Source: Sedimentisphaerales bacterium (GTDB taxonomy: Bacteria > Planctomycetota > Phycisphaerae > Sedimentisphaerales > SM23-30). Taken from it: a stretch of DNA of 48,997 bases. The notes under the pieces were generated by a model that saw only the letters and a program-made list of their open reading frames with translations, ran no database searches and had not been told where the DNA came from. A program made the position numbers and the translations under genes. Below, piece by piece: positions 23,341-48,504 of this stretch (position 1 is its first letter; every line of letters starts with the position of its first letter). The stretch spans positions 1 through 48,997 of the forward strand of contig JAFGHE010000091.1 of NCBI GenBank assembly GCA_016930295.1, read 5' to 3'.

Positions 23341-23429
23341 GACGCCAGCGTCAAAAGTATTGCGAACGTTTGTTTCTGGATTAAAAACAGCGATTTTAAT
23401 TGCCGATATCCACTATTGGCGGTGGTATC
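23341..23429 (+). mobile_element. MITE-like element copy A (89 bp), TSD TATATC at 23335-23340 and 23430-23435
   Basis: GACGCCAGCGTCAAAAGTATT...CACTATTGGCGGTGGTATC; same core as copies B, C, D; perfect 6-bp direct repeats immediately flanking. Confidence 0.9.
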
Positions 23430-36482: not shown

Positions 36483-36571
36483 GATGCGCCCGTCAAAAGT
36501 AGATATTGGCAATTAAAATCGTTGTTTTTAATCCAGAAACAAGCGTTCGAAATACTTTTGACGCTGTCGTC
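36483..36571 (-). mobile_element. MITE-like element copy B (89 bp, inverted), TSD TGAAAA at 36477-36482 and 36572-36577
   Basis: GATGCGCCCGTCAAAAGTAGATATTGGCAATTAAAATCG...ATACTTTTGACGCTGTCGTC; ~94% identical by eye to copy C in reverse orientation; perfect 6-bp flanking repeats. Confidence 0.92.
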
Positions 36572-46271: not shown

Positions 46272-46359
46272 GACGCCAGCGTCAAAAGTATTTCGAACGT
46301 TTGTTTCTGTATTAAAACAACGATTTTAATTGCCAATATCCACTTTTGACGGGCGCATC
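46272..46359 (+). mobile_element. MITE-like element copy C (88 bp), TSD TACATA at 46266-46271 and 46360-46365
   Basis: GACGCCAGCGTCAAAAGTATTTCGAACG...CCACTTTTGACGGGCGCATC; perfect 6-bp flanking repeats. Confidence 0.93.
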
Positions 46360-46461: not shown

Positions 46462-47292
46462 TTATATCAAATCCCGTCGGCTCCAGATGATATGGCCGGC
46501 CAGGGTGGCGGTTATCAATACTGATCCGAGTACACACAAGTGGCCAAGGGGCCACTGGTTTCTTATAAAGATGTCGGCTTTGCCGATATAATAGAAAAGG
46601 GAGGCAGGATAGAGCCAGTTCATGGGCGGCCACCATTCTGAGATAATGTAGATGAAATATTGGATGACCAGGAAAATAATGGTGATGTTTATTGCCTGTA
46701 CCCGCCGTCGAAAGATAGATGAGCTCAGTAGCGCGATTGCTCCGACGGTACTGGCGAGCATGCCGGCGTTGATGGCTAATCGGAATAAGCTGTATAGTGG
46801 AATTTCATCGTCAAATTCGTAGATGTGGGTAGAGGCCACGGTTCCCAGGAACATGACTATGGTCAGGAGAAACATCCCTGCCAGTGTCAGCAGGGCGACA
46901 CAGATATAGACCTGCGTTTTAGTGACCTGACGGCACAGGATCAGCTCCATGGTACCCCGCTGTTTTTCGCCCACCAGCAAACCGCTGGGTACGGCTACGG
47001 CATAAATCATATAGAGCGTCAGGATCATGGGGTGTTGATAGCCAATGGTGATCAGGCCGGTGATATTGCCGACCTGCAGGGCTTCCCCGCCGAGGGCGGC
47101 CTTGATAAAGGAAGGAAGCGTATTGATCATATTCAGGAAGACCCTGACCTTTTCATTATCATGGACGATACCGCAGACTGCCAGTTGAAAAAGAAAGATG
47201 ATCAATCCGATGAGGAACAACATCAGGGCCGTGCGCCTGCACCAAAAACGCAGCAGTGTCAGGGGAAATTGACAGTGTGACGACCTTGTCAT
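46462..47292 (-). CDS. ABC transporter permease (ABC-2 type)
   Basis: Multiple TM segments; GLLVGEKQRGTMELILCRQVTKTQVYIC motif typical of ABC-2 permeases; 4-bp overlap with the ATPase gene. Confidence 0.82.
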   Translation of the reverse strand: MTRSSHCQFPLTLLRFWCRRTALMLFLIGLIIFLFQLAVCGIVHDNEKVRVFLNMINTLPSFIKAALGGEALQVGNITGLITIGYQHPMILTLYMIYAVAVPSGLLVGEKQRGTMELILCRQVTKTQVYICVALLTLAGMFLLTIVMFLGTVASTHIYEFDDEIPLYSLFRLAINAGMLASTVGAIALLSSSIFRRRVQAINITIIFLVIQYFIYIISEWWPPMNWLYPASLFYYIGKADIFIRNQWPLGHLCVLGSVLITATLAGHIIWSRRDLI

Positions 47293-48209
47293 GGTTTCTC
47301 TCCTGTAGGGCTGCGGTCAGCGCGTCGATAATATTGCATGAAGGCGTCTTCCAGGGAGTTTTGGGGCGTGGAAATTCTATCCACCGGAAATTTTGCCAGC
47401 CATTTTAATATCCGATCAGCGGGCCCGTGAAAGGCCAGATGTAGTAAACGATCATTTGTTTCAATGATACGCACGCGGTCCAATTGTGCCAGAGACTCGG
47501 CGGTAATGGATACAGAGTTCAGAAACCAGACCTTCAGATGAGTTTCGCCCTGGTGCACGATATCTGAGATGGGCGCCAGTTCCACCAGATGTCCTTCACG
47601 CAGAATTGCGGCCCGGTTACAGACCGAAGCGACATCACTTAGATTGTGGCTGGACAGTAATACGGTTGCTCCCTGATGAGCCGCCTCTGCAATCAGGTCT
47701 AATACGATCTGACGGACAAGGGGATCCAGGCCTATGGCCGGTTCATCCAGGATCAGTAGATCCGGCTGGTGCTGGAAGGCATAGATGATACCGATTTTCT
47801 GGCGGTTTCCTTTGGAGAGCTCGCCGGCCGGTCGATCCAACTGCAGATCGAGACGCTCAGCCAGTTCTGCCCTGCGTTTTTCAATGTGACTATGGTTGCC
47901 CAGTTGCCCCAGCATTCGAAGTGCCTGTCGGCCGGTCAGGTCCGGCCATATCTGAAAATCGCCGGGCAGATAGCCGATACGTTCATGCTGTGTAGCCCGG
48001 CCAAAATGTACTTTTTCTCCCAACACGGAACAGGCGCCCCTGCTGGGCTTGAGCAGCCCCATCAGGCATCGGATGGTGGTAGTCTTGCCGGAACCATTAG
48101 GGCCCAGATAACCGAAAATTTCCCCCGGCTCTATGCTAAAGGTCAGATCCTCTATACCGCGCGACCGACCATACCATTTGGTTAAAGATTGTAAAGCTAA
48201 GGTAACCAT
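47289..48209 (-). CDS. ABC transporter ATP-binding protein
   Basis: GYLGPNGSGKTTTIRCLMGLLKPSRG (Walker A), GELSKGNRQKIGIIYAFQHQPDLLILDEPAIGLDPL (signature and Walker B). Confidence 0.94.
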   Translation of the reverse strand: MVTLALQSLTKWYGRSRGIEDLTFSIEPGEIFGYLGPNGSGKTTTIRCLMGLLKPSRGACSVLGEKVHFGRATQHERIGYLPGDFQIWPDLTGRQALRMLGQLGNHSHIEKRRAELAERLDLQLDRPAGELSKGNRQKIGIIYAFQHQPDLLILDEPAIGLDPLVRQIVLDLIAEAAHQGATVLLSSHNLSDVASVCNRAAILREGHLVELAPISDIVHQGETHLKVWFLNSVSITAESLAQLDRVRIIETNDRLLHLAFHGPADRILKWLAKFPVDRISTPQNSLEDAFMQYYRRADRSPTGEKP

Positions 48210-48249
48210 GATTTTACTGTGTATAAAAACGATTTATTATATAAGTATA

Positions 48250-48341
48250 AATACCGCCATCAAAAGTCAATCCCGGCGAAACGCCGGGACAGGCTTTATA
48301 AGTCAGTATCAAAGCTGCCACATACTTTTGACGCCGGCGTC
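48250..48341 (-). mobile_element. MITE-like element copy E (92 bp), same ends but different core, TSD AGTATA at 48244-48249 and 48342-48347
   Basis: aataccgccatcaaaagt...atacttttgacgccggcgtc; internal hairpin tcccggcg-aaa-cgccggga; perfect 6-bp flanking repeats. Confidence 0.85.
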
Positions 48342-48415
48342 AGTATAGCATATGCAATCCCTTAATAGCAAAATGAAATTCTACCATCATCCGGAACCTG
48401 AGCCGCTTTATGATA

Positions 48416-48504
48416 GATGCCACCGTCAAAAATGGATATTGGCAATTAAAACCATTGTTTTTAATCCAGAAACAAACGTTCGCAATACCTTTGACGCTGG
48501 CGTC
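48416..48504 (-). mobile_element. MITE-like element copy D (89 bp, inverted), TSD ATGATA at 48410-48415 and 48505-48510
   Basis: GATGCCACCGTCAAAAATGGATATTGGCAATTAAAACC...ATACCTTTGACGCTGGCGTC; perfect 6-bp flanking repeats. Confidence 0.92.

Follow-up and report, generated by a model that had tools for sequence, protein, structure and literature searches.

The window, i.e., the whole stretch of 48,997 nucleotides analysed here, makes up the entire contig C170 in the draft genome (4.23 Mb, 329 contigs) of a Sedimentisphaerales bacterium. Near the end of this contig lies a short repeat, termed element E, located 40 bp from a leftward open reading frame (ORF, 47289-48209) that reads as an ABC-transporter ATPase, with a GPNGSGKTT motif seen by eye. 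Reading the sequence between 48244 and 48347 gives the order AGTATA / AATACCGCCATCAAAAGT CAA TCCCGGCGAAACGCCGGGA CAGGCTTTATAAGTCAGTATCAAAGCTGCCACAT ACTTTTGACGCCGGCGTC / AGTATA—that is, 18-bp ends resembling those of four copies of a second type in the window (type 1), a 6-bp target-site duplication (TSD) and a GC hairpin, all of which had been pointed out in a first-pass annotation and are indeed present (Table 1). The predicted fold of the element consists of an end stem and two hairpins, and one weak terminator-like match is found on its minus strand. Additionally, on the minus strand at 48236-48263, an end TTGATG and a flanking TATAAT separated by 16 nucleotides form a promoter-like arrangement 27 bp ahead of the ABC transporter ORF.

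Table 1. Coordinates of element E, its parts and related copies in the window, and elements carrying the 23-bp insert elsewhere in the genome
Feature	Position	Strand	Remarks
Left TSD AGTATA	48244..48249	.	Basis: sequence reading
Element E, probable MITE of 92 bp	48250..48341	minus	GACGCC end read first
Left terminal inverted repeat (TIR) of E, AATACCGCCATCAAAAGT	48250..48267	.	Consensus GATGCCGCCGTCAAAAGT
E-specific GC hairpin, TCCCGGCG-AAA-CGCCGGGA	48271..48289	.	Subfamily T3 has TTTTAC-CAAT-GTAAAA in its place
Core arm of E, CAGGCTTTATAAGTCAGTATCAAAGCTGCCACAT	48290..48323	.	Common to subfamily T3
Right TIR of E, ACTTTTGACGCCGGCGTC	48324..48341	.	Contains the perfect 12-bp palindrome GACGCCGGCGTC
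Right TSD AGTATA	48342..48347	.	
Type-1 copy	48416..48504	-	74 bp from element E
Type-1 copy	46272..46359	+	
Type-1 copy	36483..36571	-	
Type-1 copy	23341..23429	+	
Carriers of TGTCTCATCCCGATTCATCGGGG	Contigs C30, C45, C104, C108, C220, C224, C247, C35, C79, C110, C77		Loci L288-L297, L299

The E region, used as a BLAST query against its own genome, returned 14 copies that are full-length and contain the GC hairpin, together with about 26 further matches having just the right-hand ~53 bp in common with E. Of the 13 E copies with readable flanks (a set that leaves out C237:9439, a type-1 copy), seven are bordered by an exact 6-bp TSD and 11 by one with at most one mismatch. The two findings that would have undermined the first-pass reading—chance resemblance of the E-type ends and a lack of further copies in the genome—are both contradicted by these numbers. 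A whole-genome search with the pattern GAYGCCRSCGTCAAAAGT, allowing up to 3 mismatches, detected 521 end-like sites versus 29 in the reversed control, and this excess of ~490 sites translates into ~245 elements in the genome; both inner boxes are exact in 165 own-genome elements. A 1.55-Mb sample (37% of the genome) yielded 135 paired elements; of these, 99 measure exactly 89 bp and 12 exactly 92 bp. Contigs already seen to have ends are over-represented in this sample, and its element density thus differs from that of the genome. Draft contigs often start or stop inside a copy (C15, C21, C34, C60, C64, C71, C111, C113 and C152, among others). All copy counts are lower bounds, since these repeats break the assembly.

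The duplications were then considered across all subfamilies. Among the 128 copies with both flanks available, an exact 6-bp TSD was found in 63 and a TSD with no more than one mismatch in 87, whereas random re-pairing of left and right flanks yielded on average 2.8 copies (9 at the most) at the latter threshold; no TSD length other than 6 bp was preferred in this set. Judging from these TSDs, the E family appears to have spread by transposition. The duplicated target is 72% A+T, compared with 52% for the sampled genome, and 107 of the 128 copies are intergenic, even though ~86% of the sequence lies in ORFs (of at least 90 aa). Moreover, the median divergence from consensus is similar for E (6.5%, 14 copies), type 1 (6.7%) and T3, a third subfamily (7.9%), which fits amplification during the same era.

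The ~26 partial BLAST matches, once their sequences were read, turned out to represent this third subfamily, T3. In T3, TTTTACCAATGTAAAA, likewise an inverted repeat, occupies the position of TCCCGGCGAAACGCCGGGA in E, and ~53 bp of the two types are near-identical, such that the main difference between them is one hairpin—GC-rich TCCCGGCG/CGCCGGGA in E versus AT-rich TTTTAC/GTAAAA in T3. Aligned directly, the cores of E and type 1 score near chance (65 of 1000 shuffles were equally good), and this likeness to shuffled sequence explains why the first-pass annotation regarded the E core as unrelated. That view is refuted by the remaining comparisons: E and T3 align with a z of 10.6, T3 and type 1 are matched by only 1 in 1000 shuffles, and the left arm of an older E variant and that of type-1-like copies by 0-1 in 1000. 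T3 and some intermediate copies therefore connect E to type 1, and an element from another genus (genome G140) aligns with type 1, T3 and E. As read from these alignments, all members belong to a single lineage in which the cores drift, and the one foreign part of E is the hairpin next to its left end. The earlier suggestion of at least two subfamilies can be extended to at least three in this genome, with common ends and a 6-bp TSD, and to more core types in related genomes. The companion proposal—a single enzyme moving different cargo cores—holds insofar as different cores do sit on common ends; these cores, however, are diverged versions of one core and not independent cargo. A single enzyme moving all subfamilies would be the simplest interpretation.

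The arms of the subfamilies occur in mosaic combinations. E copies carry young arms in 8 cases, old arms in 3 and mixed arms in 2, and the commonest T3 types have young arms in 15 copies and old arms in 7. One-way descent without exchange would require the same changes to have happened twice; therefore, arms and hairpins were probably exchanged between copies, the alternative being that the hairpin was replaced on two occasions. A separate observation concerns the E copy at C177:17360-17450 (L008, L088), which has no matching TSD and in which the hairpin loop is inverted (AAA for TTT), which suggests that an inversion took place at the hairpin or that recombination occurred locally.

We also found that a 23-bp hairpin insert, TGTCTCATCCCGATTCATCGGGG or a close variant, is present at one exact spot of the right end, between ACTTTTGACG and CTGGCGTC, in 11 copies belonging to type 1 (9), T3 (1) and E (1). 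Exact matches to its 19-bp core were found within the elements only, and in six of the 11 carriers (L288, L292, L293, L295, L296 and L297) the lengthened element is bordered by exact 6-bp duplications. The insert diverges from its consensus at 6 of 252 sites (2.4%) and the host elements at 66 of 887 (7.4%; p 0.003), a difference that is suggestive only, because one copy lacking a recognisable left end inflates the host figure and the host consensus is broad. This pattern fits either of two histories: the hairpin inserted late and site-specifically, or an end module moved from one subfamily to another. A more far-reaching version, which we consider rather improbable, would have a modular MITE with exchangeable hairpins, in which the core hairpin is swapped whole (E versus T3) and TGTCTCATCCCGATTCATCGGGG, as a parasite of the MITE, inserts site-specifically into the right-end palindrome of existing copies of all three subfamilies.

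Other genomes and collections were also examined. When GTDB-species genomes were scanned for the exact pattern, elements of 89-90 bp with the same ends and other cores, flanked by visible 6-bp repeats, were identified in metagenome-assembled genomes of Phycisphaerae (Tobar13.5m-G41) and Sedimentisphaerales (CSMAG_2046) and in the FCB group-labelled Gpa_11. Among 162 genomes of the order, exact end matches were confined to the family of the window; when a less strict pattern was applied to the 13 genomes belonging to that family, the own genome yielded 165 elements, G140 23, G132 4 and G143 1, with none in the reversed control. Within G140 alone, elements with the same inner boxes (e.g., C217:9299 and C5:2361) differ strongly in their cores and have other hairpins; as judged from such loci, cores change much faster than ends. 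The element had no match in Rfam or in plasmid and phage collections, and viral contigs contained 13 single-end matches—about the number expected by chance—none of which had a partner end at MITE distance.

Taken together, being short, non-coding, intergenic and present in high copy number, with TIRs and a TSD of fixed length, these elements have the anatomy of MITEs moved in trans by a DDE-type transposase, and a length of 92 bp leaves no room for a transposase gene. Element E is thus very probably a copy of a MITE subfamily, mobilized in trans by a DDE-type transposase that reads the ends, in which the core hairpin has been replaced. Mechanistically, such a transposase would recognise the 18-bp ends through the outer GAYGCCRS and the inner box CGTCAAAAGT, cut at the GA/TC termini and join the ends to a staggered AT-rich target, giving rise to the 6-bp duplication. 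The core would go unread by the enzyme, being merely tolerated at ~89-92 bp, and we propose that it can, for this reason, drift and be recombined. The E subfamily would have originated from a T3-like element through substitution of a GC hairpin for its AT hairpin, with arms and hairpins later shuffled between subfamilies by exchange.

The autonomous element behind these copies may have been lost or may be unassembled. None with these ends was found in the 1.55 Mb sampled from the incomplete assembly; where unpaired ends were looked at in these stretches, they belonged to copies that were truncated or lay at contig ends, and in one case to a type-1 copy interrupted by an insertion sequence (IS). 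Transposase loci were retrieved with PF01609, NF033559, PF00665, PF00872 and PF01797; none of the DDE_Tnp_1, IS1634, rve, IS256 and Y1 loci examined in the MITE-bearing genomes, whose assemblies are incomplete, is bounded by these ends. As for the insertion sequences themselves, one of the IS1634 family lies in a type-1 MITE (L100:5238-7248 and the end of L159) and is split between contigs C18 and C305.

The IS1634 family deserves attention as a special case of the DDE-type explanation, in which the MITEs would be derivatives of an insertion sequence of this family and would be moved by its transposase. A transposase of this family is present on contig C18 (609 aa, NCBIfam NF033559, E=4e-90), and 6-bp repeats are possible in the family, having been reported for one member, ISGka5 (PMC8024623). 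The right end of the C18 copy holds GTCAAAAAGTGGATTTT, which is near the type-1 GTCAAAAGTGGATATT over 17 bp; 17 of 3000 random 47-mers from the window score equally. This resemblance is, however, subterminal; the outer ends differ (CCCAAWTTTCGCACTTGGCGG versus GAYGCCRSCGTC), the C18 copy itself sits within a type-1 MITE and is flanked by a 4-bp TTAA duplication, unlike the 6-bp duplication of the MITEs, and neither a second IS1634 in the genome (C102) nor the one in G143 has such ends. We treat the IS1634 relation as a lead, not as membership, and derivation from this family as unlikely on the ends compared here. Farther removed is a REP/REPIN-type repeat moved through single-strand hairpins by a RAYT (an HUH tyrosine transposase), which would be in line with short, palindromic, intergenic and abundant elements and with the Y1_Tnp genes detected, one in this genome (C153:3221-3544, L231) and several in G140 and G132. 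The clear 6-bp TSD runs contrary to HUH transposition, which is not known to make one; moreover, the element ends were not found near the RAYT locus of the own genome, and no copy of the E hairpin with its full 8-bp stem occurs outside the elements in the 1.55 Mb. In G140, one element (L270) is located ~300 bp from a RAYT and is the sole element seen near a transposase locus, but a single case among four loci is not above chance. The first-pass annotation had called for a comparison of the E core with known REP sequences; CGTC-tagged REPs without a known enzyme have been described (PMC3733652), yet the stem base of the E hairpin is flanked by CAA and CAG and has neither a GTAG nor a CGTC tag, so this hairpin is not REP-like, and a RAYT-driven origin is very unlikely.

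Two other explanations were weighed against the MITE interpretation. The first takes the repeats for a family of structured regulatory RNAs or terminators instead of mobile DNA; it would agree with the predicted fold and the weak terminator-like match of E, but Rfam gave no match, the TSDs show insertion and the core fold varies between subfamilies and genomes, such that the two-hairpin fold is not conserved in every core. Likewise, scoring of 228 ends showed that -10 boxes are not enriched beyond the ends at a spacing of 16-18 bp from the outward TTGACG, and for this reason an outward hybrid promoter (with the TTGACG of the end as -35 and a flanking -10) was rejected as a general role of the family. 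We accordingly see little chance that an RNA family explains these elements. Least plausible of all would be a derivative of a strand-biased circularising integrative element using a tyrosine recombinase: such elements do have a 6-bp footprint and imperfect inverted repeats, but in them the 6 bp on the right are derived from the donor site and the flanks need not match (PMC10782965), whereas exact matches were found in 63 of 128 copies here.

The MITE family and its E subfamily are new, and the kind of mobile DNA to which they belong is already known; the papers searched contained no description of this MITE family in this planctomycete group (Phycisphaerae, Sedimentisphaerales). Its closest counterparts in organization include the Correia/NEMIS elements of Neisseria—abundant intergenic MITEs with TIRs and a TSD, occurring in related versions of 107 and 155 bp, which are distinguished by an internal module (PMC2229807). 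Those elements have TA ends and other sequences, while in the E family a hairpin is replaced in place, with a 6-bp TSD and barely any change in length. The CGTC-tagged REPs are also short palindromic intergenic repeats for which a dedicated enzyme is not known (PMC3733652), but they are single hairpins of 20-40 bp with an unpaired CGTC tag, in contrast to the TIRs at both ends and the TSD of E. The combination of fixed ends with swappable, drifting cores would define what the transposase needs—18-bp ends, a length of ~89-92 bp and a 6-bp staggered cut—and the many copies and subfamilies offer a good natural record of recombination among small bacterial elements.
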